Made by a program: the position numbers and the translations under genes
Source of the DNA: Rhytidiadelphus loreus
Lineage: Eukaryota; Streptophyta; Bryopsida; Hypnales; Hylocomiaceae
Assembly: GCA_947034895.1 (NCBI GenBank)
Contig: OX344761.1
Span: 37,894,863-37,958,862 of the forward strand
Length of the DNA: 64,000 bases
Direction: 5' to 3'
Part shown: positions 8,246 through 62,761 of the stretch, one piece after another
Numbering within the stretch: the stretch's first letter is position 1
Layout: each line of letters starts with the position of its first letter
The notes under the pieces: model-generated
What the model saw: the letters and a program-made list of their open reading frames with translations, nothing else
Told to the model about the DNA's origin: nothing
Databases searched by the model: none

Positions 8246-8844
8246 TCTTCGAAATCGAATTCAAACGGCGCAGGAGCAGAAGGCTCAACAGACGCGTCGT
8301 GCAGCATCGACAGGTACGGATGCTCCAGCGCTTCGTGCACCGTGATGCGTTTCCGCGGGTCGAACACGAGCATCTTGTCGATCAACTGAATCGCCAGAGG
8401 ATTAGCGCGCGGGTAGAGACGAGCCAGGGAGACGCGGGGAGTGAACGGAAGAGACCGGATGTAGCTCCGTGCTTTCTGCGATTGAATGAAGTGGAGATCG
8501 GTCTCGTCGGGAGAACCGATGATGCTGATGATGAGCTTCAGCTGGTGAATGTAGTCCTTCCCGGGGAAGAGAGGCTTTCGGCCTAAGAGCTCAGCGAAGA
8601 TGCAACCCACGGACCACATGTCGATGGCGGAGGTGTACTCGTCGCAGGAAAGGAGAAGCTCAGGGGCACGGTACCAGCGCGTGACCACGTACTCGGTCAT
8701 GAATTGGCCCTTGTCGCTGCCGGTGCGGGCTAAGCCGAAGTCGCAGATCTTTAAGTCGCAGCTCGCGTTCAGGAGGAGGTTGCTGGGCTTGAGGTCGCGG
8801 TGGAGCACGTTCGCGGAGTGAACGTATTTTAAACCTCGCAACAA
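8161..8844 (-). CDS. MAP kinase exon 2
   Basis: Begins after TGTGCAG with [10 protein letters not shown], in phase with exon 1, and carries the catalytic loop, DFG, TEY, the MAPK insert and the C-terminal tail, ending ...EAAIEV and TGA at 8161-8163. No internal disruption was seen. Confidence 0.94.
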
Positions 8845-10080: not shown

Positions 10081-11440
10081 TCTCAGAATCAAAACTTCCT
10101 AAAAAGCACGAAACCCTAGATTTTCACAAACCCCACCCCCTCCTTCTCCTCCTCCTCCTCTTCTTCCCTATCTGGCTCGACAGCTCGGTCCACCATAGCC
10201 TAACTGATTCAAACCACTTCGCCGATTCGCTTCGACTCTTCGCTTTCCCGCAAGAATCACACTGTCACGCTCCATCAACTGAAACCCCCAACGCGATTCC
10301 AAACCACGTCCAAGCAGCAAGATCTTGACACAAAATTCTTTTACCCTAACTGATTACCCTAACACGGTCGTCGTCTTCCACAACAATCGAAACAGGCTTC
10401 CAAGAAGCAAACCCTTTGGAATTTGAACAATTTCCAAAAGACGAAATCCTGGAAAGCCCCACTCGATCGATCCAAACTTACAATGCTCTGCCTTCTTCTC
10501 CTTCTCCTACTCCTTCCCCTTCTTCCCCTTCTCACCACCTCAACCCCACCCCCACCCCCAAATGAAATCTAAGAATGGCACCCTGCAATTCAAAATGCCA
10601 CTCCGTGTTTCTGCAATCTATTACCCTAAAACACACACATGCACATACACACCACACCCCTCGCTTACTCGCAACCCACCATTCGCACTACAGTACTCCA
10701 CCTTCAAAAAAAGTCTTCCCTCCACATTCCACAACACCCCCAAGACGCGATTCTTCTTGATTCTGCGGATCCACACAACAAGATTGATGGCCAATCGAGG
10801 AACGACCCAAATGCACTAACACCCAACCAACCGACCTCGCTCCCGTCACTAAACTATTGGCTACTGAACTAAAAGCAACTGAACAACAGGGCAGGCAAAC
10901 CTAAACTCCCCACTTCTCATCCGCCCACGAAACAACACTATACCTTAAGCTTCCTACTACTACTACTACTTCTACTGCAATGGGCTTAAACTCGGAGAAC
11001 GCAGCATCTGGCAAGGCCAAGGCCAAGGCAAAAGTAAAGCAAAGAGGACCCCACTTGCTCTCTCTCATCTATCCAACTTCGTTTTATTATTATTATTATT
11101 AATAAAAAAACTGATGATACATCAATATCTTGGCAAGGAGCATACAATCCCATCCGCCTGGCTGGCTGGCTCGCTCGCTCACTCACACACGGACAAACCG
11201 CCAAACAAACAAACAAACAAAACCCAACAACAACAACAAAACCCACAAACGTGGAAATCACTACTACTCACTCTCAAGTGAAGGAGGAGCGTAAGGGAAG
11301 GTAACCCGTCCCTCCAAGTTGGTCCTTTTGGCTTCCGGAAACGGCAACGCCCGCGAGGAACTGGGAGTGCGGGGTGCAACTATCTTGTTCAGCTTAAAAG
11401 TGGCACCTTGGGGTGGAGATCAGGGGCTGTTTTTTTCTTT
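10081..11440 (-). promoter_or_regulatory. probable leader and promoter region of the MAP kinase
   Basis: Immediately upstream of the kinase ATG, base composition is much less AT-rich than the intergenic DNA. The sense strand carries purine-rich (GA) tracts, seen as cttcttctccttctcc on the plus strand near 10492, typical of plant 5' leaders. Also present are CA-rich and (CTA)n stretches and ggctggctggctcgctcgct at 11158-11177. No exon of another gene was recognised. I cannot place the transcription start or a firm TATA box; a leader intron is possible. Confidence 0.4.
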
Positions 11441-18207: not shown

Positions 18208-18488
18208 CTAAGAATGTTCTACCATGGTATTTGAATATCTATGTCTTTGTATTACATTGTTTCGCCTATGATACATATAACATGCCGCCAAGCTAAAAAA
18301 TGATGCAATGATAATAATTGTACCAACATGAGAACCAGATGAATTTATTTCCATTGAATTATTTGTGGTATTTGTAAACAAATCCATTTCATTATAATTT
18401 TCAGGTATTGCCATAATTATACACAAACTATCATTTTTCACTTTCTTCCATCCTTTTATGCATTCATCACATGCCTTTCCGCCATAGC
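18208..18488 (-). CDS. protease exon 25: TM anchor and tail
   Basis: YGGKACDECIKGW closes the EGF-like module. A 43-residue polar stretch with several NxS/T sites leads to the hydrophobic helix VGTIIIIASFFSLAACYMY, followed by HRR and a 20-residue tail ending VEHS and TAG. This orders the protein as type I: protease outside, short tail inside. Confidence 0.9.
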
Positions 18489-21400: not shown

Positions 21401-24400
21401 CCATATTGAGACCAAAAACACCTTTCACTTCATAGTTCTACAACCACTTAGTTGCATCAAACAAAAATTGGTATGTTGGAATGTTAATAAAATGTCACAT
21501 TTAGATCCTCAATTTTTATCAATTTTTTATTACAAATTTTGACTTCAAAATGAATTTCCAAAATAATGCAAAAGTCTAAAATGGTTTCCTAGTTACTATG
21601 TCTTCATTTAATATAAATTTCTAAGAAAACAACATTTAAAAAAAAATTTAGAGTTCATCAAGAAAATCTCTAAGCCAATATGTTATAAACTTTTCATAGA
21701 ATCTATAAATTATAAGATATAAAAAATTACCTTTTAAAAAATTGTGTAAACTTGAATGTTTTCTGCAAAATATAATTTAATTTCTATTGTACACATACAT
21801 AGTGATTTAGATTTTAATAAATCAAGATTTAACAAAATTTATTAAAAATAACCTTGTACAAATTACTAATGTTGGTGATTTCTGCTACAAAGATTTTTAC
21901 AAGAATATAAAAGCATCAGTTAAAACACTCTTACACTTAATTATTTTTGAAATAAAAAATAAATAAAATTTTTATCTCGATCATCTATATTCATAGATTT
22001 TTACTGAAATTTCACACAACAAATTAATTAATATGCTTTTGAAGTACAATGTATGCACACACCCAAAAAGCACTGGCATTGTCCACTTGCATCTAAGCAT
22101 AAGCCTTTTCCAGAACATGCTCTTTGCGCATATGGTCCATTAAGAGGAATAGGACAAGTAGCTGAGATGTATGGACAATCTTCAAAACAACATGTTTTGT
22201 CTCCATGTTGAATTGCACTTTTACTTTGGAAATCACAACGTTCACCTTTTTCACAAATACCATTACCACAAACTCCAACTTTTTCCAAATGTAGTATTGA
22301 ATCAACATAAAGGGATACCTAATATAAAATATGAAAAATGATTTAAATATATTTTTTGAATAATGATTAAAATAATATATTACAAAATCATTTTTCAATA
22401 TCAATACAATACTATTTTTAGTAATATTTGATGAATGTTATAAAACCTGGTTTACCATTAGAGTGTTGCTCAATTTTTTTTCATTTATAGAAAATTCATT
22501 TGAAATATGTAGGTTTTTTAAAACTTCATAAATATCATTTGAAGCAAAAATCATTTGTGTAAGATGATCCTATGAAATAATAAAAATAGATTTTTAAGTA
22601 TATATTTTCTAAAACATGACTAAAATAACATTCAATTTTAATGATTTTTAATTTAATTTTATATTTTTAGAAAAAAATTATGTTGCACATTAATATGTAA
22701 TAAAAAATTATGTAGCATATACTCCATATTACCTTAGGTTTTGGTAAGAGAGTCATATTGATGACACCAAATTCATTATAATATCCATTTTGTAGACAAG
22801 CTTCGGCACGATCAGTACTTGTTGAACAATCACCTTAAATAAATAATTTTTAATTTTTAATGATTTTCTAAAATACATGAAATTATTCTCATAATCAAAA
22901 AACTTATTTTTTTGATGTTTTGCTCATAAATATTTATCTATATATTTATTTTTCAAAACCTATAATTGTTATAGATGCATGTATTGTGTGAATTTTTTTT
23001 AAAACATCTATTTATTGTTATTTTTCTATATGATCCCATTTTAGGCATTTGTTAAAGAAAATTTAAACTTACAAAATATCAAATATATCAAATAGTTTAC
23101 CTTCATAACTGTTTTTTAATTGCATGGAAGATAATATTATTGAGCCATCACCTAAACCTAGTTTTGATGCAATCTGTTTTAAAACAAATATATTTTTATT
23201 ATATTAATACGATAATTTTTTGTATTTGTTTCTAAATTTGGTACACTTAAATGATACTATTGATGATTTAGTAGCGATGTTAAGATTGTATTGTGCATGA
23301 GTAAATTTAAGCTTTGATGATAGTTCAAATTAGGCTTGAAATCTCCAAATAGTTTAAATGTTTTCAAAGATTTAAATATAAAATTTTACTTATATTGATT
23401 TTTATTTTTTAAATTTTATTCTAAATAGTTGATTTTAAAAGACATTATATAATTTCATTTTTATATGAATTATATATTTAATTTATTTTCCAATCCTTTC
23501 AATTATGGATCATAAAAATTAATGACTTAACAAGATTATTGGTTTGAAATCATATGAATGTATGATTATTAAATATTTTATTAGGCACCAAGTACTATAA
23601 GTTTAACAACCTCTAATATTGATCCTATATTTTTTTCTCACAATCTTTATGTCTAAAATATTAGAGGTGGTTTTTAAGAGACATTGTCAAACATTGCCAT
23701 TTTTAGCAAATTGACCAAAATAGAAAATTTGATTTTTTTATAGAATTTCAAGCTTACAAAAGTATAGTAGACCTCTTATATAGAAATCTATGGAAAAATT
23801 ATAGACTATTTGACCACATGAATAGGAAGATTAATTGTGACAATTGAAGTTTGGGAGCCCTCTTGGAGTAAAATTTTTGTTCTATACAATCATGTTAAGC
23901 CTCTATTCCATTCAATTAGTATGCCTTCTTAGATACACAAATGCAAAATGTTGGAAGCAAATTTGTGGTCTAACTTACTCTAATCACCCTATATTGCATG
24001 GAGGTTTAAAAAATTGCTATATACTAGTCAATTCTTGACAATATTCTACACCCTCAAATTTTTTCATTGACAAATACAAATGGAAAAAATATATAAACCA
24101 TCATCTTTCATGAGTAAGAAAATTTTAGTAGTTTTTAAAAAAAAAAATTGTTCACTTACGACTAATTTATCTTATCGCATTGTCTATGGTACTACACAAC
24201 TTGTTAAATTAGCACTCAATGCTTGACATGATTTTGTTATGGAACCTCGTAGATTGACAATATTGCAATGGCTAGAATTGAAGTGGAGGAACATAAATTT
24301 TTGGCCATTTTGGAATCAATTAGCAAACAACTTTCAAATGGGTAGGTTGCAATTTATAATTGCGCATGCTATGAGCAACAACCACAACAAGTGCATAACA

Positions 24401-27400
24401 AGTCCCTTTAAGATTTCCATGGTTTCAAGCCCCCTTACACCTTAATCCTCCCTACTGCAAGATTCATGTATCATTGATTGGTTTCCTTTAACAAAGTTTG
24501 GACAATGTATTTAAACTTTTTTATGATCCTCCTGTAAAGATTTTATCCTCACCCAACTACCCAAGCTTCCAAAACACTATCCATTGGTGTCCAAATTTCC
24601 CAAATTTTAAAAAAAGCATAACTTTTGATCTAGCCTCATGATTGGTGTTGGAATTTTTTTCCTTAAAAGAGGTAAACATCTCCATCTTGAGCCAAAACTC
24701 TAGAAACATTTATTCATTTCTTATATGAATCCAAATATCAAATGCCCCTTACATGGACATTTGGTCATGAAGGGATTAAAATTATTATTTTTACATTTAA
24801 TCTTTTATCGTAATGAATATCAATTTATAAGATATTGAAAAATTCTTATACTTGCGACTACATTCAATGGTCATAGTTTTTATAATTCTTCTATCTCTTC
24901 AAATTTAATTTATTAACCTACTCCACTATAAATTACTCCAAAAAAAAAGATTGACTATAACTACAATTTGGTGAAAAAATTTGTGGAATCCAAGGTGACT
25001 TTGAATGCATGTTGTTCCATAGCCTTGAATTTATTATAAGACCATCTAAATGAGTTTTCTTGCCACTAAAAGAATCATGGATAAATGGAGGTATTTATTT
25101 ATACCATTTGAAATTTCTAAAAAAGAGGGTTTAAATATTGAATTCAAGAATTATTTATGATAAATCTTTATAGAAAATTTTAAAAAATAGGTCAAAAGTT
25201 GAGATTTAATACAAATTGATATTTTACAAGTTAGATTGTGAAAGTTGTGATGACAATGCATATCATACTATCATTATTTTTTAAATCTTAGTTCGAATAA
25301 TACATGATTTTGTAAAATCTAGACAAATCATTCTAGATTTATAAAAAAGTTGTATACAAAATTGTGTAATTGGATTGTTCTTAAACTTTTTAAATTGAGG
25401 TATTCTAAAGGAGTCAATTGATTCTTTCAAACATTGATTATTGAAAATCACATTTAAAAAAATTAAACATATATATATATATATATAAGATATATTCCAT
25501 TTTTATAAGAATTAAAATATAGATTTTCAATGTAATTTACACATGTAGTTGTCTTACATTTGATGTTAGAACAAAAATGAGGAGTTTCCATTTTTCATGT
25601 GCTTCATTGGTAATTGTTAAATCTGAATTAAAATTTACTAGTAGAGTTACGTTCGTTGCGCAAGTTATTCCATCCCCATCACAAATGTGACATTCATCTA
25701 AATATCCGCTTGAACAACATATGCCTTTTTCATCACGGATTGTACTACAACATGTAGCTTGAGAGTCCACATATCTATATAACAAGGTATTGTAGTTTTA
25801 GCTTTACATCTTAAACTTTGAACACCACAAAAAGTCTTTGCATTCTATAATTGTATTTACATTTTTTTTTTTTGAATGAAAAAATGCATGGAGATAGTGA
25901 AAATTAAGCATATATATACATTTCAAATGTTGATTGACGTGAACAATTTGAAAACACAGTCTATTAAGGATAGTTTTATATTTAAAAAATAAACTTATAT
26001 ACTATATATAATATCAAATTTATATTCATATAATTATTTAATTAATATTAATATTAAACTTTATTTAATTAATTAATATTAATATTAAACTTTATTTCAT
26101 TAATTAATATTAATATTAAACTTTATTTCATTAATTAATATTAATATTAAATTTATTTATTCATAATAAATTGATAATTGAATAAACTAATGTAGAATTT
26201 GAAGAAATTTAATAATTGTTATTCTATTTTGCAAATAAAATATTGAACAATAAAATATATTTCTTATGATTTATCAATTATCAAAATTTTAGGCTTATTG
26301 AAATATGTATTAGATAAACATATTCAATTAGTATTAGATTAAATAATTTTGGTTGTGTCGTATTTTTTTCAATTTGGGGTGGTGACAAATATTTACATCA
26401 TTGTTAAATAATCAATCAGTAATTTAAAATTTTGAATTTATACTTGTATGGAGGTGTACTTTAGTGGACTATTTTTAGCAAACCATATTTCTACTAGTGC
26501 TATAATTGTTATAATTTTTTTTGCTAAGTATTTCAATACATTGAAACAATAATAAATTTGAATGAGCCATGTTCTTTTGTTTTTGTTGAATTCCTTTTTG
26601 TATAACTTTGAGTTTTAATAATATTTAGTGAAAACTAAATGTATACTACAATATTTATATGTTAATATATTATGATATTTAGTAGTTACAATGTTATTTT
26701 ATGATTCTTCAAATCACTAGGACTTAGTTTATATTTGATAAAGATAGAAAGACCTATTAAGAGGGCATATAAATTCAAAGGAATTTTCTTATGCTACTAT
26801 CTAGTAGTTAGTTCAACTAATATTAGACAATTCTAATTTTTTTTTGAAAATTATGGATTATCCAAGTTTAATTTACTTGATACAACTTAACCACAATTAA
26901 TTTTGAAGGAGTCTTGGCTCATTGATAATTACTTCTTTCTTTCAAATCAAATTTAAATGTATTCTTGATTTTAATGTAATTTTTACAAATAGTTAATACT
27001 TGAACTAAAAATGGAAATTCAAAGTGTGGTGTTAATAAATTATTTATATAATTAACCTTAAATTGGAGTCATACATCTTTGCATAATCAATTTAAAACAA
27101 TGCAATTTGAAAATCTACAAATTTTTAAAGCAAGTGGATTATTCAGAGACTAAACTTTGGTATCGTACACATAGTGTAATAAGTAACTATATTTTAATTT
27201 TGATTTTGTATCCAAAATTTTAGAATATAATTTATAATTTAGATTTATTTGATATGTGTGTTTTTTAATTTTTTAATTTTTTAATAGCATTTTTTTAAAT
27301 TATTAAACAAAGGCAAAATAAAAATTTGATTCCATTGTTAGAAGTACCAAATCCCTTCCAGAATGTTCTAAGGAGATGAAAAACACCTTAAAAGAAGATG

Positions 27401-30400
27401 GGCAAAATGTACACAAAAATAATAAACATACTTGTTTAGTGAATGAAAATGTCTATATAATGGATGATTATATAGTAAATGATATTGTCATTCATTTTAA
27501 CATATTTGATTGTTCATTCAAATGTACATCATCCATACACATTGACACATTTTTTTGCAATTATATATAATAATTTTATGCCTTACTAGATTATAAATTT
27601 GTTAGAACATTCATTAAATAGCCAAAAATTTCAAACATTTAAAAGGAGTCAACTTCATTCTTAATAGATAATACAATTATTTGTAATAAGAGGGCATTAT
27701 AAAAAAATCACTAAAATCTTTAATTATGGTAATTGTTGAGAATTTGAATTGAAATGATTGTAGACTGTTATGGCCACAATGTATCCATGATGAACTATTG
27801 TGTTCTAGATTGAATGTCTAATTGAATGAAATGTCTTTTATAGATGTTGTAGAAGGGTAAGGATTCATGTGCATAACTCACAACTTTCCAATTGAATGTT
27901 TATATGCTAGTGAACAATGTTTACCAAATAGGTCTCCTTTTTCATGTGGGTGTTGTGGATTGAGCGTAATGATGTGGCCTTCAACAACATTTGGTGGCAT
28001 CTAGTTAAACTCTTGCAGTGCATCTAATTAGGCTTGATCGACTATGGGCATGTTGAATGAGACAAGGCTTGCAAGGAACAAGAGTTGTCCTATTAGGAGG
28101 AAGTTCGTTAGGAGTAGGTTTGCTACCAAGTGGATTTGGACTTTTTTGTTTGCTAAGATGGTCAAAGGTTCATCTAGGTGGAGGTTCTTTGGGCCTAGGG
28201 CCGGTATTGTGTTTCAACCGCCTTAGGCAGTTCTGCCCTCGTGGGATAGGCTTTGCCCTCCCGGGTGGTATCTTCTTTATATTTTAGTTCAGTCTGTGTT
28301 AGTTATTTGCCCTTACAAACCGCTTGCGGCTAGGTTCTATTTCTTTTTCTTGCAATAAAGGCTTCCTTTATTTGTGTTTAAATAAATAAATAAGTCTCAA
28401 TTTTGGGGTACAAATAGGAATTTTATCTTGATTACTTGCATATTACCTCCTAGTGGGAATGAGTCAAATTGAATTGGTATAGAAAGTTCCAATGAAGATT
28501 ACAACTATTTAATGTTGGATAGTTAGAATGAGCAAGTGCCATTCCATAAGGATAAAGGAAAAGAATCCAATTAGAGTGCACCATGGCTTGAAGAACATGT
28601 ATCGAGTCCTATGTAATTGTGATATTTGATTGTATATTCTTTTGAATTTGAGGACATAATTGATTTGTTTTAAGTAAAATGTGGAGATCATGAAAGTGAA
28701 AAGTGTATGGAATTAAATAATTAGTTTTAATTGTTAATGTAGATTTTTTATAATTGTCCTATTTTGGATGTTGTTTAATGTGCACTAGTAGGTAAAAAGT
28801 TGAAGTAGTAGATTTATATATGATGAAATTTGAAAATATTAATAAAACTATTATAAAAAGATAAAAATAAAATTGTGATGTCTAAAATTGAAGTGCAAAG
28901 TGTGGTGAATATTAATATCATGTAAAATTAGGAGAGTCAAAACAAAATTAGAGATTTTGTGATTTAATTGTTGAATGATTTCATGATTTAATTGTGTAAG
29001 GCAAGTACTTCCTCTTTTGAACTCATTGTCATTGTCATTGTGACACAATGAGCTCAAAAAAATTTGGATTTATTTATTTTTCATTAATCCCCCTCCAAAG
29101 AGAATTTAAAAAGTTTTAAAAATTAAATTAAAAAATATTTTTCAAATACCCCCTACGTCTATCATTTTCCTTTTGTAATTTTCAGGTAAGGTAGGGTTGG
29201 CATTTGATATGGAATATGTCCTGTATCCAAATCCATATCCTTAGCTATGTATATATTTGTATCCATATCCATATCCCAAATTTTTTTTTTGAAATCAACG
29301 GCATTTGAATGTGTGTGTGTGTGTAAAAAATTGAAGGCTCTCAATTTTTGGAGGAGAGGGGGGGAGGAAATGCATATAAAACATCATGTTGCCTCTTTTC
29401 AGTACATTGTGTGTCATTAGTAATTTAGCAAAAAGGACTTCCAAATAAGACAAACTATCATTTTTTAATAATAAGATATAAATAAGAGTGATGACATGAA
29501 AGGTGACTTGATTTTCCTCAGGTTTATTATTCTATTAGAAAATAAATTACTCTTGTAATTCCTTATTGAATTTTGCTAGAACTCTAATTTTAACTAGAGG
29601 TAAATCCATTTTTCTATAAACATAAAATTTCTATTAAATAGTTAATTTCCATGGAGTGAGCTTAGAGCTAAGAGTTAGATTAATCCAATTTGGATGATTA
29701 TTGATTCTTACTATATATGCTTCATCTCTTATATTTTTGTACATTCTATTTATACAATGAAGTCCTATATTCAATGCAAAAAACTCACTCTATGCATGTT
29801 TACATTTAATAAAATCATTTTCCTATGTTATTGGTGTTAATATATTGTAATGTAATAAACAATTTGTTTATTTGCAAAATAATTTGCTAAAGCCACATAG
29901 TATAATAATTTTATGATTAGTAGAGTTAGTAAAATTCTAATTAAATACATAAATAGAGAGAGAGAGAAAATCATATGCACAAAGCACAATTTTGTATACT
30001 TAATGTAAATAGTGAAGTATTCTTACTTTGCAATTCCATTGCATTGTCCACATGCATCAATATTACCTTCTTCACAACACAATCCATCCTGGAAAATTCA
30101 ATGATAGTCATGATAGTGGTAATATACTCATAAAAATGAAATTATCTAGTATAAAGTATCCATTAGGAAAATTTTCAAGCCAATAATGGGTTGCGAGTTT
30201 TTTCGGTAGTAGTGCAATTATAGCAAAAAATTTATTAAATAATAATTTAAAAAATATATATTTGACATAGCACTACTAGTGCCATGTTAGTGCCATGTCA
30301 AATTGGTGATTTCAAATTTTTGTTATTTATTTATCTTTTCTATAAATAAAATAAAATATTATTTTATTTCTCTATATTTACACTGCCTCCTAAAATCAAA

Positions 30401-48400: not shown

Positions 48401-51400
48401 ATATGAAATTTCATATAAAAAAAGTTTTTTTTGTATAACAATATCTAATATCCATTATAACATTATTTGTGGTCAAAGCCTTTGAGTTGTAGAATTTACA
48501 AAAATGTAAGTTATATTTGCTTTTAGTGACAAAGCTGTCAAAATAGAAATTTGATTCCATGCATCATCACTACAACCAATCATTGTTAGTTTTGATACAT
48601 TTCCTTGGATGGTCTTTTGATATGCAGATAGCATAGTATCAAAGTCTGTCTCTGTACTATTTAAAGATATTGTCACCAGCTACAACATGAAAAAATCACA
48701 CATAATTTGGTAAGTGTATTAAATTAAAGATTGCAATGTACTCTTATTACAACAATTTTTTTGACATTTAAACAATATGTAAAAAAGAAAAAGAAAATAT
48801 GAAGATTAAAATAAAAAATAAATTTTATATTCTAAAACATTTGCATTGGAGCTATTAAATAATCAATTAACGTACCATATTTGACTTGGGTGTATATTGG
48901 AAAACAACATCGGGGCCAACATTATGACAATAATCATAATTCACATCATATATATTTTGGTATTTCATAGCATTTTCAGTATAAGTGAAAGGCAATTGTG
49001 GAATAATTTTTGGATTGTCAATAGTTTGTCCACATGGATTTTGTATCGACCATTTACAAATTCCTACCAAAAATTAACAAAAAAAAATTTATCATTTGAA
49101 AACAAAATGTTGTGTTATAAATTAGTATAAACAATGATGCTTATTTTATATTGAAAGTTGATTTTTTATCATTAAATAATTTGAATAAATAATTTATAAT
49201 ATTTAATCATATTTTTAATAAAATATGAATTTTATGCTAAAAGAAAATTTAATAAAAATGAGTGTAATAGATAATTATGATGGTTGTATTATTCCATAAA
49301 AGATGATTATTAAGAATTTCCATTTAGGCAAATGGTAAGTTTTGAAATGTTGTAATTAAACTTAACTAATCATTTTACAACTATATTGAATCCATTAATA
49401 TTGATCAGAATAATTTTGTTTACAAAAAGCAATATTTTTTCAATCTATAATGTTTAATATAATTATTAATAAGTAGATAATCAAAATTTAAAAGACAACT
49501 GGCATTTCGTTTTTTCTAACTCATACAAGATAAATGTGGTTCTAATATATTTAATATAAAAAGTTAATACATAGAATCTTTATATTTTTGTATTTTTTTT
49601 TTTAAACAATACATACCTGTATCAAGAGACAAAACATATCCTTCAGGAGAAATATTATATCGAGCATCTTGACTTGTAAAAGACCATTGAATTACAGAGC
49701 CACGATCAAGATAATCTACATAATTTCATAAATTTAAACTTTAGATTAGATGGAATGAATTTCTAGTAGTAGCGAAAAAAATTAATAGAATATTGAGATC
49801 ATTTTCTTTTATTCATATAACAAAGAACTTCATTCAAATACCACTTTAAAAAAATAATTTAATGCTATTTCTTTTTTTTAATATTCTTGTATGTTTCTAT
49901 GTAAATTCAAATGCTCAAAAACAAAAAAAAATCAATTAATATAAGTTAAACTATCCCATTAAAGAATAAATGGGAGCAAGCCCATTGTGGGCAAAATTCT
50001 AATGGTGGTGTACATTCAAGTTTTCAAATGTACACCGCCATTAGAACTTTGGCTACAATGGGCTTGCTCCCACTTATTCCGTAATGAGGTAGTTTACCTT
50101 ATTTCATAGTTAGGACAAATTGATATATGAAATTCAAATTTATTTTGTCGTATCATTTTTGTTTAAAAAATTGTTTTCCCCCTAAATCTGCCAACAAGAA
50201 TATATCAATTTGTCCTAAGATGTGAAATTCAAATTTATTTTCTTGAATATTCTTAAACAAAAATGATACAACAAAATTTATAATGAGAATTCTTCTCCTT
50301 AAATTATTCATATCATAAATTGATGTAATTGGATATTTATTTTTATACATGTTAGTATATAATAATATATGTTAGTATGTTTTATGTATAAATATAAATT
50401 TTAACCTGTTCGATTAGCAACTATAAGCTTGATTTTTTGTACCATTGACCAACTTGCGTCATTTGCAAAATAAAGGTATGTTGGTTGAAAATATCCTAGT
50501 CAACCACATTATGAACAGAAATTTTATTTTGACAATGAATTATATTATAGTTAATAATTTACAACCAAAACCTGTTTTACAAAAGATAGTAAAGTTTATG
50601 AAATATTTCCAAATTTTATAAATGTATATTAATTCAAAATCAAGTAATGTTTATACCACGGTACATAGTTTGTATAACAAAAAAAGATCTAAATCTTTTT
50701 AATATATGTAAAAAAATGTAAAAGAAGTCTGTTGAACAACATGCTTGAGGTCAAAATTGTAAAATAATATGCAGTTTTGGGTGAGTTTTGGGTGTTATAT
50801 ATTGTACAAAAAATTTGTGTATAATTTTTAAAATTACATTGATTCAGATTGTAAAAATCTTTAGTGTATTTTTGCATTAATGCTATTATATTGTAAATTT
50901 TTTTTTAAAGTAAATTTTGTTTTGATTAAACTCATTACATAGGTTTTTACCTCTAAATTCCTAAATTCAAGGATTTATTAATGATGTCCTTCTTTCAACA
51001 TTTTTTTCATCCATTTAAAAGGTTATAGAAAAATGCATTAGGTACCTCATGATATAAATTCAACCATTTATATATCTGTTTTAATTAAGAATTTTCAAGA
51101 ATCACTTTTTGAAACAACTCGAGATTACTATATTTATAAATAATAAAAAGAATTACATAATCTCTAAAGGACTTGGGCTGCTATTATATAAACCCAGGAT
51201 CATGAATACATGAGCCTAAAACACTATACACTTATGATATAGGTATCTATATTATAAAATCTTCTATGATTATAGGGTACTTATGTTATAGGTACTTATA
51301 TTATAACTTGTGTTTATGTTATAAGCACCTTCAAGAATATCTACTTATATATACGCTCAAGGCTTATATGCTTGCATTTTCAGGCTCTTATGTAGTGTCA

Positions 51401-57400: not shown

Positions 57401-60400
57401 TAACTATAATTTAAAAAAATATTATATTTAGAAATACTATGCATTGTATTTACTATGGTCAATGTTGATATGATTGCAAACTTTTCATCTTTTCATTTGA
57501 AAATTTATTTTTGAATCATGAATGATTCAATTTCATTTATGACCTCCAACTCCAAATATATTTCATTTATTTTCAAATGAAAAGAATGAGTGTTGATTTG
57601 AATATTATTTATTGATTATTTTTGGAAATAATTTTTTTCTACGTTCATCGTTTATTTTATTTGTATATGTGTTTATTCAAATAAAGTGTATTTATTAAAA
57701 CATATAGGAAATGATTTTTTTGTTAATGTATCGTGTCGTATAATATATTGGTATTTTATGTTTAATTCTAAAATGTATTTTCTGTAAATTATATGTACTA
57801 AAATAAAAACAAAAATATAGAAAGAATCATATTCATTTATTTTTTATTTTTTATTAAATCCATAAATATAATAATGGATATTAGTTTATTAGATATACCA
57901 ATAGACGAGTCAATAAGAGTTGGAGTAACCGTAACACTGCTTGTTGGCTTTATTCGTAATGATATCATGCTAGTTTGAGAAGTGCCTTCAAAGACATTAT
58001 AAAATTCTCTTGGAGTGATGTTAAAAGGTGGTTGCATCATATTGACAACATTCAAAAACTTTGTAGTGGTATTAGCTAGTGCATTATTATTTATAGCCCC
58101 AACTTCACATGCATCAAGCAAAGCTTGTCGTACATCTTTAGGCCTTGCATCTATATATTGACTTAAATAAAGTGCAGCTCCACCAGCCTAAACATTATAT
58201 TTTTAGGAATTAAATTCAACTTGTAAACCCATTCTTGTTCTAAAAAAACAAAAACATTGAAATCTTTAATAAGAGATTCTTCTATTTTTTATATCGAATG
58301 ATATACAATTTTATTATAAGTATCTCATATAATAAACTAATGAAAACTATATATAGTAGGGTTTTATTTTCATTTTGGAACATAATCATTCCAAGTAAAA
58401 TTTTCTTTTTGAAAAAAAATGAATTTCATCTAATAGTAAATTAGAATCAATTTTCATATTTCCCATAAGTAAGCAACTTCTAAAATTTTATGTAATAATT
58501 ATTGATATTTATAAGATTTAATTGAAAAATTATTATCTTCATTTTTATAAGCCATTAATTTGAAATCAAATCAAACCTCTATAATAATCGAAGATAAAAT
58601 TAAAATCATTTCAATATTTTTTAAACACCAAAATTGTAAACAAATTCATTTTCATAGTAAAAGCCACCTTCATGTTTAAAACTATTTTGAAACCTATAAG
58701 TTTAACTTTAATGTCTGAGTTGTTTCTAGTTTGATTTTTTTTGGTTGAAAGAAAAACAAGATTTAGAAATTTAGAGAAATTTTTAATAAATACACATTAT
58801 CCTTAATAGTATACTCATCAAAGTTTGAGATGTATTTATGTACCACATGAGGACAAGCCATAGATGTTCCTGAAATAGTATTATATGAAGTATCACTTGT
58901 ATTCCATGTACTTGTTATAAGTTCACCCTAACCATTTCAAAAACATTAAAATTACAAATTTGAAAGGAATCAAGTGAAATGAGAAGAATATAATTTACTA
59001 CAATAATGGTTTGCAAAGTATATATAAATTAACAAAATAGAAACCAACGCACAATTGTATAATGCATGTTGTAATTTATTGGACACAAACACCATTCTTT
59101 ATAGCATTAAAAAAAACAGAAATATTGGTATGATTTTTTAAATTTAAATTTTTTTTTTTTAAATTTGAAAAATAATAAACCAGAAAATTTTAGTCAACTT
59201 TTTTTGGGACAATGCTACTTATTACAACTATCCATTCCAACATTGTATAGAAATAAAAACAAGTTTATGCTATTAAAAATTTGAAACTTTCCTTAGTAGA
59301 TTCTCTTTGAAGTTGAGTGATGTAGTGACAAAGGTTTAGGATTATGATTCCTTGTTGAATTTTAGCCATACAATAAAGTTTTAACCAACCAATGTCACTA
59401 CTTTCCCCTCAAAGATAAATTAGATCCACAAAGTCCAAGGAAAGGACATGTAAATGTCTATTCTTGTCATTCTCTCATTCTCTTAACTTTGAAAGTCCTA
59501 AGACCCATTATTCACTCAAAACTATTATTTATTGTAAAAAGCAAAAAGCTTAATAATTTGCTTTTTTGGAATATTTCACCAACAAATCTCATATAGATTA
59601 TAAGATATTTACATTTAAAATGAATAAAGTGGATTTTTGAATATGATCCCAGACCAAAATTATTTGATTTTGAAACTTCTTAACTTAAAATCCTTACACT
59701 AGAAATTTTGATTTAAAAAAATTTATGTTGAATAATTCAATTGAAATTCTAGAGAAACAAAACTAAAAAAATACTTTATTTTCATATTGAAATAGACACA
59801 AACCAATAGTGAGATTGTTCTAGCAAGTATACTTAACTTTGTGGAGCTTTTTCTAAATTGTCAAAATTGAGTTCAAAAACAAATTTAGTACAATGTTTTC
59901 TCAAGAAGTTTCTATAATTGCCCCCAAACAAGATGTTCCATAACTTTCACATCACAAATCCAAATGGAATGATTCAAAGCTTTCTATGCAAACAAAAGTA
60001 TAACCCATGAGAAAAAAAATTCACAAAAATTATTTCAAGTTTTTGTGAATTTTTGTGTTGTTTGGTATTCTCTAATTTGAATTTAAATATTGTGGTATAA
60101 CTTTTGCTTCCAAGTACCAATTGAAATAAAAAAATTATTTCCAAGATGACAATATGATTTTAAATATTTAAAAAAACTTTCAAAAAATCATGTCAAAAAT
60201 TGAAGTTCATGAGCCTACCCAAAATTCATTTTGTCCCTCATAGAGACAATGAGATTTTAGATGTAAGCCATCATAGATTGCAAGCACCACCAAAAATTTA
60301 AGATTGACTAGAATGTTCTAAAATTTAGAGAATCAATTTCCAGGATCAATTTTAAACCTCTCATCTATTACAAAATACAAAGCAAACACCATTTGAATTA

Positions 60401-62761
60401 TTCTGAAATGTTGAAATGTCTTTCTCCAAGCTATATTGGTTAGTTTTTGTATATAAAACTATATAGTCAAACTATATGGTCAAATTATTTGAGATATATT
60501 GAGGTGCTCAATATTTAACATTGATATCCAATAGTCATATTCTTGACCATCTAATCTTTAAAATAATTAGAGAAAAAATTAGTCAAAGTATTTTATTATT
60601 TTTGCAATTTAAGCCTATTTTGAAAGTCACCTAGTTTGGTCTTTAGGATTCAAGGTGGAAAACATTCTTTCAACCAATAGGATAATAGCAAAAAAATATA
60701 TTTTAAATTATCTAAATTAAATTAAATCATTGTAGTTAAATTGAATGGTTTATTGCAACCATTGCAACCTCATATAATTTAATTAATCAAATTCTAAAAT
60801 AACAAAAATTTAGAGAATCAACTTTTTTTAAATAGAAAAATATAACAGAACAATTTTGGTCAGCATAAGAAAACAATTGACATATATAAAATATTCATTC
60901 CAATAAAATTTGCAAAATTTACAAGTAATATATGAATATATGTAACATAAGTGCAATTTATTTGTAATAGTTGAAAAGAGCCTTTTATTGTTTTTTTCTT
61001 ACTGGAGCAATAATTGATGAACAACTACCATAGTTTGAGAACCAACTTATAACATTTAGAACGGAACTAGAAGCAACAGACAATGTAGAAAGTACACGAG
61101 CAGGAGAATAATTGCATGCATCGTCATGAAAATTGCCTGCAGCTACTACCTAATTCAAAATATATAATATTTAAAGATGGATGTTTAGAATGATTTCAAT
61201 TATTGTATACAATATGATTTTTTTTAAATCAAAATTTAATTTAATTTACTCAAATGATTGATATACTCAAATCAATAGAAGAATGTACAAAATATATTTT
61301 AGATTGAATTGGTTTATTATAGGCAATAGTATATGAAATAATTATAATTTTTAATATCTTATATCACATAATATTTATCTTTAATTATATTACATCACTT
61401 TCAATTAAAGTTTCTATAAAACTCTAAACATGAAATTGCAATTTAATCATATCAATAGTATTGTTGGTAGAAAAAAATTCAAATTTACATTCGAAGTTAA
61501 AAATATAAAAATGAATGCAACCTAAATAAGGATGATTTTTTTTTTTAATAAAATCAAAATCTTTATATATATATATGTAAAATGTCATTCATTCTAATGT
61601 TTTCTTGGACGTTTGTAGTCCTTGACTTCTATGAATTTCTAACATGCATTTATTATTATTATTATTTTAATAAAATATATAGTTGAAATTGCATTTACTG
61701 ACTATGAGAATGCCTTGGGTGTCCATAAAATTTATAATTGCTTGATCAATACTAATGGATGCTGGAGATGCAAGAGACATAGAAATTATTGCAGGCGAGA
61801 TAGCATTGTAGCTTAACCAATCAAGAGCATTTATAATATTTCCATAGCCTCCATTACCATCGCAAGACAATGCTCTAACTGGATGAACATAAGCACTTTT
61901 TGCAACTCCACTTTGTAAACCAGCAACAATGCCTTCAATAAATCATATTTTTATACTATTAGTGAATTGAAAAAAATGTAATCTATTTTCAATTAGAAGG
62001 ATTATTTTTTCACTTTCTACTTTCTGTCTTTTTTTAATAGTTGCATTTGCTAGAAATTACTTTATAATGTAAAATCAAAATAGTATTATCACTAGATTGT
62101 TATACATGATTATTTTCAACTTCTATTACCTGCACAATGTGTACCATGTCCATTGCAATCATTTGTTAAATAGCCATCACCAATTATATCTAGTCCAGCT
62201 AAACATCGAGTCATAGGTTTCTTATTTGAGTCAAGTCTTCCATCCGAGTACAAAAAATCTTTATGAGAACATCTAATACCCTTCAAATAAAGTACTATAA
62301 TGTTTCAATCAATAGAATTCTAAACTAGTTTAAAGTAACTTGGTCTTTTGATAAACCAATAACATTGATAAATTATATAATTTTTTAATTATATTATATT
62401 TTTGTTTACAAGGATTATACAACCATAGTTATTCTTAAAAAACATTTATTATTTTTCATCTCCTCTAAGTTTCTAACCTACAGTGTCAACAATGTAAACA
62501 TGTACACCACTGCCTCCACTTGTGACAGAATATAAATTATTTATAAGAGCTTGCTTAGATTGGTGGTCAATGCGATCGAGCCCCCAACTTGGAGGATTGG
62601 TTTGTGTAATATTTGTAGCAGTCATGCTTATGATAGATTGACTCACACGAACAACACCCTCTACTTCTACGTGCTCAATAAAGTTCAATTCAACTTCCAA
62701 AAGTTGATACAAATTATTACCGGTTAGAACCATCAACATGCCTTTCCACTTAGTATTGTAC
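18208..62761 (-). CDS. proteinase-K-like subtilase with thrombospondin repeats and TM anchor (5' incomplete)
   Basis: Twenty-five exons join in phase, all with GT-AG introns, to 1,319 residues ending in TAG. Numbering starts at the first full codon seen. Residues 1-41 are the end of an I9 inhibitor propeptide. The S8 catalytic domain spans about 60-325, with D92 (IVDTG), H138 (GHGTHCAG), oxyanion N226 (AAGN) and S291 (GTSMACPHVAG). There is no PA insertion, unlike typical plant subtilases. Then: a VTVTP-type segment (about 345-425), a PPC-like domain (about 457-600, GPDVVFQYTP, DFDTMLSAY), a Ser/Thr linker, four TSP1 repeats (650-704, 706-763, 767-820, 822-879), EGF-like 880-908, CC-doublet repeats to about 995, an unknown spacer, a Cys-rich/EGF-like module (1158-1237), TM helix 1281-1299 and a 20-residue tail. 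N-X-S/T sites are frequent. I infer a type I cell-surface or shed protease with an adhesive stalk; substrate unknown. The start and signal peptide are missing. Confidence 0.88.
18489..22062 (-). other. intron 24 (3.6 kb)
   Basis: AT-rich, with no exon supported inside. About 19290-19900 matches the 3.2-4.1 kb dispersed repeat in blocks. Confidence 0.6.
22063..22318 (-). CDS. protease exon 24: Cys-rich and EGF-like module
   Basis: Contains CGNGICEKGERC, then CCFEDC, then ACSGKGLCLDASGQCQCFL. The CGNGxCExGExC start is a common extracellular Cys-rich motif. The end is the front of an EGF/laminin-EGF-like module. Phase 1 donor TTGG|GTGTGT. Confidence 0.9.
22447..22569 (-). CDS. protease exon 23: spacer
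   Basis: Reads DHLTQMIFASNDIYEVLKNL and ends NTLMVNQ, phase 0 at both ends. No known domain; it is more AT-rich than the other exons, so this is the least certain of the 3' exons. Confidence 0.75.
22733..22833 (-). CDS. protease exon 22: spacer
   Basis: Reads DCSTSTDRAEACLQNGYYNE and ends INMTLLPKPK. Phase fits on both sides. Confidence 0.8.
23101..23173 (-). CDS. protease exon 21: spacer
   Basis: Reads IASKLGLGDGSIILSSMQLK after FVLTSN. The A-xx-LG-xxxx-I-x-I arrangement recalls small alpha/beta adhesion modules, but I cannot name the fold. Phase 1 out at GAAG|GTAAAC. Confidence 0.78.
23174..25557 (-). other. intron 20 (2.4 kb)
   Basis: Around 23.8-24.6 kb the plus strand is less AT-rich with short open stretches, possibly an old retroelement fragment, but no domain is secure. 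Nothing else was seen. Confidence 0.5.
25558..25774 (-). CDS. protease exon 20: second CC-doublet repeat and spacer start
   Basis: Reads ATCCSTIRDEKGICCSSGYL then DECHICDGDGITC, a second copy of the doublet pattern, comparable to the CGVCGGD-x-SxC end of animal ADAMTS Cys-rich domains. It then enters a non-Cys spacer ending VLTSN in phase 0. Confidence 0.9.
26033..26155. repeat. 31-bp tandem array
   Basis: About four copies of a 31-bp AT-only-like unit containing ttaatattaatattaaactt, spaced exactly 31 bp (the single C of aaact recurs at 26059, 26090 and 26121). Confidence 0.85.
27950..28394 (+). mobile_element. 5'-truncated LINE (L1-like) 3' end, degenerate
   Basis: Translated on the plus strand, 27950-28045 reads VLWIERNDVAFNN, then WWHLVKLLQCI, a stop, and LGLIDYG. 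This is the conserved tail of plant L1-type reverse transcriptase ORFs (WxxWxERNxxxF ... QxIWxGLxDYG). Stops interrupt the frame. A 3' UTR-like stretch follows (28200-28370), ending in aataaaggcttcctttatttg and a TAAA-rich tail. Only the end of the element is present, as usual for LINE insertions. It lies inside intron 19 in the opposite orientation to the host gene. Confidence 0.65.
29310..29324. repeat. (GT)n microsatellite
   Basis: Seven GT units, adjoining a stretch of tatccatatcc-type degenerate repeats (29210-29280). Confidence 0.8.
30027..30088 (-). CDS. protease exon 19: CC-doublet repeat
   Basis: Reads DGLCCEEGNIDACGQCNGIA, the pattern CC-xxG-xxD-x-C-xxC-x-G. Short, but both borders and phase fit. 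Confidence 0.85.
30540..30710 (-). CDS. protease exon 18: EGF-like end and Cys-rich segment
   Basis: GGKCVCQDGWEGRQCE is a standard EGF C-terminal half. It is followed by DNKLDCCPYYTIDINRNCC, the first cysteine doublets. The donor ATT|GTAATA is chosen for phase 0 with the next exon. Confidence 0.85.
30847..30984 (-). CDS. protease exon 17: TSP1-4 end and EGF-like start
   Basis: CVDGSG follows RQVQ without a gap. The exon closes the fourth repeat at MLCSQSNVIC and opens an EGF-like module (CDNQMYCSEYGQFE). Confidence 0.9.
30985..33564 (-). other. intron 16 (2.6 kb)
   Basis: AT-rich; no exon, RNA gene or clear element seen. Confidence 0.6.
33565..33648 (-). CDS. protease exon 16: TSP1-3 end and TSP1-4 start
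   Basis: PC completes TCNTHPC of repeat 3. Then YSWLVGPWNDCLGTCEGIQI begins repeat 4. Phase 0 at both ends. Confidence 0.9.
33649..35664 (-). other. intron 15 (2.0 kb)
   Basis: AT-rich, dominated near its 5' end (in gene sense) by the 13-bp array listed separately. Nothing else was seen. Confidence 0.6.
35144..35440. repeat. 13-bp tandem array in intron 15
   Basis: About 22-23 nearly perfect copies of the 13-bp unit gaaaattgaaatt. The period is not a multiple of three, so the long open frame it creates on the minus strand (cycling FNFQFSI residues) is a by-product of a stop-free repeat, not a protein. The homogeneity points to recent expansion and probable length polymorphism. It starts about 225 bp downstream of the exon 15 donor. 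Confidence 0.95.
35665..35935 (-). CDS. protease exon 15: TSP1-2 end and TSP1-3
   Basis: Finishes the second repeat (TCISQIC) and holds nearly all of the third (MNWEFCNVPCGMGVRSRDV and later KTCNTH). Ends in phase 0 at CAT|GTAATT. Confidence 0.9.
35936..38506 (-). other. intron 14 (2.6 kb)
   Basis: AT-rich with no supportable exon or element. Confidence 0.6.
38507..38598 (-). CDS. protease exon 14: TSP1-1 end and TSP1-2 start
   Basis: Reads ECNIIEC, closing the first repeat, then YIGSWNECDKVCGEGYQRR, opening the second. Phase 0 in, phase 2 out (AGAAG|GTGATA). Confidence 0.88.
39984..40283. mobile_element. inverted-repeat element, TGAGCCYATGAGC family, copy 2
   Basis: Starts TATGTGAGCCTAGAAATGTG and ends with CTCACATA, the exact inverse of its first eight bases. 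The inverse match continues inward through TGAGCC-ATGAGC for about 40 bp. Length 300 bp. The core is a set of imperfect direct repeats of the type acatcctataactatggaag followed by gtgcctataaca. TA at both borders would fit a TA target duplication (mariner/Stowaway-like), but this is only suggestive. Confidence 0.7.
40600..41300. repeat. dispersed repeat family B, copy 1
   Basis: Resembles 44200-44920 in the same order and orientation. Both have ggtgtccattgcaaatcttg or its one-base variant, then taatctttt/ttcaatccataagtg, then aaacttgg/aggttgtttagttttga and aaaaaaggcatt. A third, partial copy lies at about 52900-53110. No coding frame is conserved. Confidence 0.6.
42984..43070 (-). CDS. protease exon 13: TSP1-1 middle
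   Basis: Reads DAQFRCYIGNYIEADASNC and ends PKISQ, supplying the central cysteines of the first repeat. Phase 0 at both ends. Confidence 0.85.
43677..43876 (-). CDS. protease exon 12: Ser/Thr linker and TSP1-1 start
   Basis: A linker rich in Ser, Thr and Asn (TTSPISIVTTSSIQVSSQR), likely O-glycosylated, leads into WSTNAWGPCNSSCGGGYQ, the Trp-Cys-Cys core of the first thrombospondin type-1 repeat. Confidence 0.9.
44200..44920. repeat. dispersed repeat family B, copy 2
   Basis: Same block order as 40600-41300, about 3.6 kb away in direct orientation across exons 12 and 13. Divergence is considerable, with many substitutions and indels. Confidence 0.6.
45619..46082. mobile_element. inverted-repeat element with AAGCCCATTGTGG ends
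   Basis: The left end aaggtaaataagcccattgt(ggtca) and the right end tgaccacaatgggctaattt(acctt) are inverses over 25 bp with one mismatch. Length 464 bp, with no coding capacity. The terminal motif recurs in the hairpin at 49945-50098, which suggests one MITE family with long and short members. Confidence 0.7.
47273..47339 (-). CDS. protease exon 11: PPC-like domain, end
   Basis: Reads IVDGWSNLGGTFGFILTNYT, the expected last strands after TYIF (usual pattern YIVVDGxSGxxGxF). The acceptor ATAAAG is chosen over one 16 bases upstream because only this one keeps phase. Confidence 0.8.
47340..48499 (-). other. intron 10 (1.2 kb)
   Basis: AT-rich, with GC-richer patches around 47.8-48.4 kb where cctgtcat occurs in repeats. 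No exon fits in phase. Confidence 0.5.
48500..48679 (-). CDS. protease exon 10: PPC-like domain, middle
   Basis: Reads LVTISLNSTETDFDTMLSAY and then GCSDDAW, the DTxL and DD elements of the PPC-like fold, ending NITYIF in phase 0 at TTT|GTAAAT. Confidence 0.88.
48876..49063 (-). CDS. protease exon 9: PPC-like domain, first half
   Basis: Contains CGQTIDNPKIIPQLPFTYT and NVGPDVVFQYTP, which match the pattern of the bacterial-type pre-peptidase C-terminal domain (IPxLPFT, then GPDVVYxFTP). Ends in phase 0 at ATG|GTACGT. Confidence 0.88.
49617..49715 (-). CDS. protease exon 8
   Basis: Reads SVIQWSFTSQDARYNISPEG and ends SLDT. Borders ATGTAG|AT and ACAG|GTATGT. I do not recognise the fold; it links the beta segment to the PPC-like domain. 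Confidence 0.82.
49945..50098. mobile_element. near-palindromic hairpin in intron 7
   Basis: Arms of about 73 bp (49945-50017 and 50026-50098) are inverse to each other at about 85% identity, with a loop of only 8 bases. The arms share gggagcaagcccattgt exactly. Transcribed in either direction it would fold into one long hairpin. It lies within the 690-bp intron between exons 7 and 8. The shared AAGCCCATTGTGG motif connects it to the element at 45619-46082, so I take it as a short MITE rather than a microRNA gene. Confidence 0.8.
50406..50495 (-). CDS. protease exon 7: beta segment, continued
   Basis: Reads YFQPTYLYFANDASWSMVQK then IKLIVANRT, the second half of the VTVTP-type segment (compare the P-xx-LxF-x-N-x-W-xx-Q pattern of such repeats). 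It lies after a 7.4-kb intron. Both borders fit in phase. Confidence 0.8.
51198..51396. mobile_element. inverted-repeat element, TGAGCCYATGAGC family, copy 3
   Basis: The left part has catgagcctaaaacac and the right part has gctcaaggcttatatgc then caggctcttatg, the inverse in degraded form. The core has ttataggtactta/tgttataagcacctt units as in the other two copies. The ends are approximate. Confidence 0.5.
52340..52640 (+). repeat. dispersed repeat, inverse match to 15.4-15.7 kb
   Basis: The plus strand carries the same ordered blocks as the minus strand of 15420-15720, roughly four-fifths identical by eye. No shared open frame. It marks a moderately old high-copy family inserted in both intergenic and intronic DNA. 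Confidence 0.65.
52900..53110. repeat. dispersed repeat family B, partial copy 3
   Basis: Contains taatctttcaatccataagt, then gatgaaacttatcaaaatgt and a tttcaagaaactta block, as in the copies at 40.6 and 44.2 kb. Confidence 0.55.
55272..55405 (+). mobile_element. tRNA-derived SINE
   Basis: An A-box-like TGGTGTAGTGG (55286-55296) and a B-box-like GGTTCAATTTT (55322-55332) are 25 bases apart, as in tRNA-type polymerase III promoters. A GC-richer tRNA-unrelated part follows (cctacccatgtggcaggg, ttggtggatctctt) and an A-rich end (ttattgaaaaaaaa). The contrast with the AT-rich surroundings and the short length fit a SINE inserted in intron 6 opposite to the gene. The B box deviates from consensus, so this copy is probably dead. 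Confidence 0.6.
57899..58187 (-). CDS. protease exon 6: end of S8 and start of beta segment
   Basis: Starts AGGAALYLSQY, completing PHVAGGAA, then ARPKDVRQALLDAC, the C-terminal helix of the catalytic domain. It ends with a segment carrying SVTVTPTLI, reminiscent of the Calx-beta-like or VTVT repeats found after bacterial S8 domains. The donor at TATTG|GTATAT gives phase 1; the frame stays open beyond it for 20 codons, so the border rests on the phase match to exon 7. Confidence 0.85.
58188..58843 (-). other. intron 5 (0.66 kb)
   Basis: AT-rich, nothing visible; it splits the codon series for HV|AG of the Ser box. Confidence 0.7.
58844..58927 (-). CDS. protease exon 5: catalytic Ser
   Basis: Twenty-eight codons from GELITSTWN to GTSMACPHV, carrying the catalytic Ser in its standard box. 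Phase 0 at both ends (GTG|GTACAT). Confidence 0.93.
58928..61002 (-). other. intron 4 (2.1 kb)
   Basis: AT-rich. 59.9-60.25 kb resembles fragments of the dispersed repeat near 14.5 and 55.7 kb (ccaaatggaatgattcaaag). No exon seen. Confidence 0.6.
61003..61145 (-). CDS. protease exon 4: oxyanion Asn
   Basis: After the acceptor TTAGGTAG it reads AAGNFHDDACNYSPARV, with the oxyanion-hole Asn, and ends SSIIAP in phase 0 at CCA|GTAAGA. Using the upstream acceptor (GAATTAG) would break the phase with exon 3. Confidence 0.9.
61146..61698 (-). other. intron 3 (0.55 kb)
   Basis: AT-rich with a short tatata run and (TTA)n; no further structure. Confidence 0.7.
61699..61932 (-). CDS. protease exon 3: S8 core
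   Basis: Continues HCAG with IVAGLQSGVAKSA, then VRALSCDGNGGYGNIINALD and IISMSLASPAS, the substrate-pocket strands of proteinase K-like enzymes. Ends ILIV at a phase-1 donor (GTCA|GTAAAT). Confidence 0.92.
62130..62280 (-). CDS. protease exon 2: catalytic His
   Basis: Begins GIRCSHKDF directly after DT, completing the DTG motif, and ends in CNGHGTHCA, the catalytic His box of the proteinase K group. Phase 0 in, phase 1 out (GCAG|GTAATA). Confidence 0.92.
62482..62761 (-). CDS. protease exon 1 (first seen): propeptide end and catalytic Asp
   Basis: Starts after TACTTGTAG with a single base completing a split codon, then YNTKWKGMLMVLTG, typical of the end of an I9 propeptide. It continues through PPSWGLDRID, the usual start of a mature subtilase, to VHVYIVDT. 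It ends in phase 0 at ACT|GTAGGT, placing the catalytic Asp (residue 92) two codons before the border. Confidence 0.88.

Follow-up and report, generated by a model that had tools for sequence, protein, structure and literature searches.

The locus analysed here raises the question whether a moss encodes, in a single gene, a membrane-anchored subtilase of the proteinase K type that carries four thrombospondin type 1 (TSP1) repeats, modules usually viewed as components of the surfaces of animals and protists. The stretch of DNA under analysis, hereafter the window, comprises 64,000 nucleotides of contig OX344761.1 of Rhytidiadelphus loreus. We put at roughly 0.7 the probability of the reading developed below, under which one gene of 27 exons encodes a proteinase-K-type subtilase joined to four TSP1 repeats, EGF-like and Cys-rich modules and a predicted transmembrane (TM) helix, and the product is likely an active, surface-tethered protease with the mechanism and history proposed here.

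Structure and support of the gene model

The spliced model lies on the minus strand and consists of 27 exons spread over 53.6 kb, from position 71789 (window with the extension locus L009 appended) to position 18208, encoding 1,419 residues (Table 1). The 25 in-phase exons put forward in a preliminary description of this DNA reappear as 25 in-frame window exons with identical outer ends, 62761 and 18208; as a gene, that set was incomplete, two further exons being located upstream of the window. These are exons 1 and 2, in L009, 7.8-9.0 kb upstream of exon 3, and they encode the hydrophobic, signal-like start of the protein and the N-terminal half of the propeptide. The predicted product contains, in this order, the signal-like N-terminus, an I9-like propeptide, a proteinase-K-type S8 domain, a beta domain, a PPC-like domain, four TSP1_ADAMTS repeats, an EGF-like module, a Cys-doublet module, a SEA-like domain, a second EGF-like module, a TM helix and a short tail. 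An HMM search of the joined protein, as suggested in the preliminary description, was run with Pfam: it recovered the S8 domain and the four TSP1 repeats of the original domain list, left EGF just under the cut-off, and gave no match to I9, PPC or the 'VTVTP' segment, the first two of which gained slight support from profiles built here. The SEA-like domain, for which a ferredoxin-like fold is predicted, had been missing from that list.

Table 1. Coordinates of the predicted S8-TSP1-EGF-TM gene and its parts, in window positions
Feature	Position	Strand	Evidence
S8-TSP1-EGF-TM gene, window part (25 of 27 exons)	18208..62761	-	spliced model; tblastn of P0001; P0080 aligned from residue 1
Exons 1-2, beyond window end	71789-71587 and 70673-70569 (L009 appended)	-	spliced gene model
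Exon 3: second half of I9-like propeptide, start of S8, catalytic Asp195 at 62487-62485	62482..62761	-	model, tblastn, fold order, profile test
Exon 4: S8, catalytic His241 at 62148-62146	62130..62280	-	model; invariant 14/14
Exon 5: S8 core	61703..61932	-	model, tblastn
Exon 6: S8, oxyanion Asn329 at 61134-61132	61003..61149	-	model; invariant 14/14
Exon 7: S8, catalytic Ser394 at 58864-58862	58844..58927	-	model; invariant 14/14
Exon 8: end of S8, start of beta domain ('VTVTP' segment)	57899..58187	-	model, tblastn, predicted beta-rich domain
Exons 9-10: remainder of beta domain	49617..50495	-	model, tblastn, structure prediction
Exons 11-13: PPC-like beta domain	47273..49063	-	model, tblastn, structure prediction, weak profile match
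Exons 14-16 (part): linker and TSP1 repeat 1	38578..43876	-	Pfam TSP1_ADAMTS
TSP1 repeat 2	35830..38571	-	Pfam; P0077 gapless
TSP1 repeat 3	33643..35820	-	Pfam; only genome-wide TSP1_ADAMTS match (exon-by-exon reading)
TSP1 repeat 4	30886..33636	-	Pfam; P0077 gapless
EGF-like module 1	30666..30870	-	EGF_Teneurin match, just below cut-off
Cys-doublet module with repeated CC and DxCxxCxG motifs	25660..30608	-	alignment: many cysteines invariant or nearly so
SEA-like domain, ferredoxin-like fold	22307..25659	-	predicted structure
CGNGxCExGERC Cys module	22154..22270	-	motif, alignment
EGF/laminin-EGF-like module 2	18421..22120	-	EGF_laminin match below cut-off
Predicted transmembrane helix	18274..18330	-	hydropathy 1.90
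Basic predicted cytoplasmic tail (21 residues) and stop codon	18208..18273	-	gene model

All introns of the model are GT-AG by rule of the search, and the splice-site weights were approximate plant values. A first model, built on codon and splice scores, included two small exons lacking homology support and missed others, and a second one, with a higher intron penalty, dropped true exons. The final model was guided by extra score for eight stretches that match the Physcomitrium patens protein and is, therefore, not independent of that homologue.

In tblastn searches, the P. patens protein (P0001, 1,429 residues) matched 26 of the 27 exons, all except exon 1, collinearly and in frame, and in an alignment the N-terminal region was matched by the Ceratodon protein P0080, from residue 1 over 529 columns. 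Protein P0077, encoded by a JGI contig of 1,570 bp, aligns without gaps and at 86% to residues 805-1271 (467 residues), crossing ten predicted junctions and spanning about 16 kb of the window. That contig is too short for introns like those of the window, so P0077 is probably derived from a transcript. The final model is 59% identical to the P. patens protein (1,364 aligned columns), 68% to that of Ceratodon, 48% to that of Sphagnum and 44% to that of Marchantia; for the draft protein, identity to P0001 was 57% over 95% of the query. Collinear homology and the identity of both the draft and the final protein to the P. patens protein rule out chance or non-gene open reading frames.

All 20 matches to P0001 at E<=0.001 in the Rhytidiadelphus genome (407 Mb; 32 candidates scored) fall within this locus. 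Nine of them extend into stop codons that fall outside the exons in the spliced model. A TSP1_ADAMTS search of the whole genome, read exon by exon so that repeats split by introns are easily missed, produced one match, to repeat 3 of the same gene. No paralogue was found by either search, and the S8-TSP1 gene was thus found in one copy in this genome.

Neighbouring and other features

Several further features were recorded. Two long open frames on the minus strand at window positions 8164-10098 were read by eye as pieces of a plant MAP kinase with a TEY activation motif, an ordinary neighbour gene; between the pieces, at 8874-9626, there are minisatellite-like arrays whose units measure about 84 and 169 bp. 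A 13-bp unit is repeated 23 times, with 99% matches, at 35144-35447, in the intron between exons 17 and 18. On C1, the contig of the window, two S8 genes, L007 (C1:13341596-13342969, minus strand) and L008 (13347686-13349059, plus strand), lie in opposite directions about 4.7 kb apart and are equal in score, open-frame length, GC content and first residues, which would fit recent duplication in inverted orientation or an effect of the assembly.

The protease half

Peptidase_S8 was matched by the final model with E=1.8e-40 and was the sole peptidase domain found in the Pfam scans. The preliminary description had claimed a full set of catalytic residues, and indeed Asp195, His241, the oxyanion Asn329 and Ser394 could all be located. 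These four do not vary among the 14 proteins aligned; P0007 and P0011 stand outside the alignment, yet show all four motifs. Compared with solved S8 structures, P0001 scored 249 bits with 8c4z, 222 with aqualysin, 134 with the best fungal enzyme seen, about 120 with proteinase K, 115 with PCSK9, and 96 or less with subtilisins. By these scores, the catalytic domain is nearer in sequence to the aqualysin/proteinase K enzymes than to subtilisin.

The regions flanking S8 were approached with profiles built here and with predicted structures, the latter of low confidence (mean pLDDT 61.7 and 55.9, with S8 mostly below 60). The I9 profile matched the regions preceding S8 in 6 of 176 proteins and in none of 176 shuffles (E<=0.01), slight support for an I9-like propeptide, and the I9-like order strand-helix-strand-strand-helix-strand is predicted at residues 76-141 of a fern protein. 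The PPC profile weakly matched two of 176 other proteins and none of 176 shuffles; the two were P0042, annotated with PF04151, and P0047, which lacks that annotation, and of the 11 listed proteins annotated with PF04151 one was matched and the other 10 were not. The profile of the VTVTP segment found no relative among the 176 proteins at E<=0.01. Structure prediction gives this segment a beta-rich fold (fern orthologue, residues 441-550; block pLDDT 73-93), and no solved structure was assigned to it because S8 took up the list of structure matches.

The stalk half

TSP1_ADAMTS was matched by four stretches of the final model (E=2.5e-30), and TSR structures head the Foldseek list for the Selaginella model. 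The first EGF-like module scored 23.3 bits with EGF_Teneurin against a cut-off of 24.3, which is exceeded in P. patens P0001 and Marchantia P0002; similarly, the second is below the EGF_laminin cut-off in the window protein and above it in Marchantia.

The signal peptide and the TM helix were judged from hydropathy alone, with values of 1.91 at residues 6-24 and 1.90 at residues 1381-1399, the latter at the edge of the threshold. A C-terminal hydrophobic helix is predicted for the proteins of the window species, Physcomitrium, Marchantia, Calypogeia, both Riccia, Klebsormidium, Selaginella, Chara and Chlorokybus, and the orthologues score 1.96-3.37 where it was found. By hydropathy, none was detected in Sphagnum P0004 and two Closterium proteins, the annotated C-terminal ends of which look cut or garbled.

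The sugar signals of animal-type TSP1 repeats appear to be mostly missing: among the 36 TSP1 repeat cores matched in 11 proteins, none contains WxxW and 11 contain CxxS/TCxxG. The core pattern used for this count missed the fourth repeat in several proteins, including that of the window, and misplaced the first repeat in Sphagnum.

Distribution among streptophytes

S8 and TSP1_ADAMTS co-occur in 10 of the 76 listed homologues (P0001-P0008, P0010 and P0011, in precomputed Pfam lists). Apart from the window species, the two domains are joined in Physcomitrium, Sphagnum, liverworts, Klebsormidium and Closterium. Of the six proteins scanned, five, including that of Klebsormidium, contain exactly four TSP1_ADAMTS stretches, and the Closterium one contains two. 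Orthologues with the same domain order, for which the preliminary description had proposed a search, are therefore present, contrary to the possibility that no such orthologue exists. Judged from these sequences, the S8-TSP1 protein is an old streptophyte family and not peculiar to one genome.

Other homologues include parts of the architecture. The Ceratodon protein P0080 is a partial entry ending ahead of TSP1. Diphasiastrum P0009 continues past S8 as far as TSP1 repeat 1, where it breaks off, and Selaginella P0012 comprises the half from TSP1 to TM without S8, with part of the linker kept before repeat 1; these two, and Chara P0028, which also lacks S8, look like cut gene models. The fern proteins (Adiantum, 728 aa; Ceratopteris, 698 and 689 aa) have the PPC-like domain as their last one and no TM helix. 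Chlorokybus P0016 has TSP1, EGF, Cys doublets and TM without S8. The metagenomic protein P0020 (18 member sequences) likewise lacks S8, and its TSP1 repeats, EGF, Cys doublets, CGNGxCExGE and TM follow one another as in the window protein. The occurrence of each half alone supports a modular reading, with a protease module and a surface module.

In seed plants, no protein so named was found among the matches listed, of which many are nameless and one set consists of the best 120 of 7,374; in hornworts, none was found among the matches listed. Apparently, the protease half alone was kept in ferns and the gene was lost in seed plants. If the latter reading is true, the function of this protein would be hidden from the standard angiosperm models.

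According to a 2019 study (PMC6713707), homologues of proteinase K occur in Archaeplastida, among them Marchantia and Physcomitrella, 'but not in vascular plants'. Neither 'TSP' nor 'thrombospondin' occurs in the main text of that study. The homologue lists obtained in this work contain proteinase-K homologues of lycophytes and ferns, which correct the statement on vascular plants. No paper on the present architecture was found among the matches listed in the open-licence literature, in agreement with the preliminary description, which had called the protease undescribed; the Klebsormidium database entry, however, already bears a corresponding name (see below). A search of the open-licence literature with the Marchantia locus number returned no paper. 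PMC8792609 names a Marchantia wall subtilase, Mapoly0013s0084. Membrane-anchored proteinase-K-like subtilases with TSP1 repeats are conserved and, apparently, uncharacterised. In the genetic models Physcomitrium and Marchantia, a conserved protease with four TSP1 repeats would give access to a wall-facing form of proteolysis invisible from Arabidopsis or rice, and a knockout could test its role directly if the gene is single-copy in the model species, as found in the genome of the window.

Evolutionary origin

In a tree of 60 S8 domains, a branch with support 100/98 separates the 15 streptophyte sequences from all others, in a bootstrap that had not fully settled. These 60 were taken from 178 cut domains, mostly top matches of unnamed or bacterial origin, leaving out the streptophyte sequences P0007 and P0011 and five long-branched ones. 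An earlier quick tree of 75 domains, with the very long P0052 among them, did not set the streptophytes apart at a single branch (two changes, against one). Because the sampling consists mostly of unnamed or bacterial top matches and the bootstrap is unsettled, the tree shows neither the donor nor the direction of transfer.

The history that we propose would begin with an aqualysin-like, bacterial-type I9-S8 protease with beta and PPC-like domains, which would have joined a TSP1-EGF-SEA-like-TM surface protein early in streptophytes; later, ferns would have retained the protease half only, and seed plants would have lost the gene. To the more specific proposition we assign about even odds: that streptophytes preceding land plants fused the bacterial-type proteinase K enzyme to an older TSP1-EGF-SEA-like surface protein of the green lineage, giving rise to a membrane-tethered pericellular protease comparable, on the plant side, to the ADAMTS and membrane protease systems of the animal matrix. 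On this view mosses and liverworts have kept it, ferns retain a soluble protease as its remnant, and seed plants have lost it.

Proposed mode of action and alternatives

The signal-like N-terminus would direct the protein into the secretory pathway, where the I9-like propeptide would fold the catalytic domain and then be self-cleaved and released, as in proteinase K and aqualysin. The mature protease would face the apoplast atop a rigid, disulfide-rich stalk of TSP1, EGF and SEA-like modules, held by one TM helix with the N-terminus outside. The TSP1 array and the PPC-like domain may hold the protease on ligands of the wall or matrix, and cutting would thereby be local to the interface of plasma membrane and wall, where surface or wall proteins or peptide precursors could be processed. 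For the biological role, the preliminary description tentatively named matrix remodelling and gamete or cell adhesion.

Some animal SEA domains are cleaved at a site of the GS-V/I type. The predicted SEA-like domain of the window protein is close to the membrane, and a single GSII is present in this region, at residue 1155, and also in P0077; together with the fern form, which has neither TSP1 nor TM, these features are compatible with a protein that is made as modelled and then cut in the stalk, becoming a soluble apoplastic enzyme like ordinary plant subtilases, with the TM helix acting as a delivery anchor only. P. patens and Marchantia do not share this GSII, however, and the stalk modules and TM are retained from Klebsormidium to mosses; we regard release of this kind as unlikely.

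Somewhat less probable still is a protein in which the TSP1-EGF-SEA-like part does the work, as an adhesion or signalling receptor, and S8 mainly matures it or binds. The relatives without S8, P0016 and P0020, share the order from TSP1 to TM, and PCSK9, which is related by fold, is known to act as a binding protein. In contrast, the catalytic residues of the S8 domain are invariant throughout the alignment and ferns keep the protease half by itself, which suggests selection on catalysis and suggests, in the case of ferns, that catalysis matters on its own.

A false merger of two adjacent genes, one for an S8-PPC protease and one for a TSP1-EGF-TM surface protein, over the 3.4-kb intron that separates exon 13 from exon 14 is very improbable: each half does exist alone (the protease in ferns, the TSP1 part in Chlorokybus and P0020), the P0077 match does not reach the exon 13/14 junction, and the Selaginella and Diphasiastrum models contain one half or little more, but S8 and TSP1_ADAMTS are joined in the 10 listed proteins of a moss, Sphagnum, liverworts and algae, exon 14 (43876-43677) encodes the linker after the PPC-like domain together with the first part of TSP1 repeat 1, and the P. 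patens tblastn match continues through the linker (residues 717-781). The single gene of the preliminary description is thus upheld, and we retain the surface-tethered protease as the preferred reading.

Comparison with known systems

The closest counterparts are the Klebsormidium nitens protein P0008, named 'Subtilisin-related protease with thrombospondin repeats', and the unnamed orthologues of mosses and liverworts, which share the order S8, four TSP1_ADAMTS repeats, EGF, Cys doublets, CGNGxCExGERC and TM. P0008, known here as a database entry, is 37% identical to the draft window protein, and its annotated N-terminus begins inside the propeptide.

With the aqualysin I/proteinase K subfamily (I9-S8, often with PPC), the window protein has the catalytic domain in common and, with slighter support, the I9-like and PPC-like parts. 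Members of that subfamily are soluble and are not known to carry TSP1, EGF, SEA-like or TM modules. PCSK9 also lacks TSP1, EGF and TM and has a different C-terminal domain.

The plant subtilases SBT1-5, of the pyrolysin type, are likewise S8 enzymes of plants, and are secreted. They carry a PA insertion between the catalytic His and Ser and an Fn3-like end. Neither PA nor Fn3 was matched in the window protein by Pfam, and 153 residues separate His241 from Ser394, so that membership in SBT1-5 was rejected.

Animal ADAMTS proteins resemble the window protein in that a protease is followed by TSP1_ADAMTS repeats and by Cys-rich modules with DxCGxCxG-like motifs. ADAMTS enzymes are secreted zinc metalloproteases, whereas no reprolysin domain was found by Pfam in the window protein, a predicted S8 serine protease with a predicted TM helix, which excludes it from the ADAMTS proteases. 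The analogy to ADAMTS drawn in the preliminary description, in layout and not in catalytic fold, stands as an analogy only.
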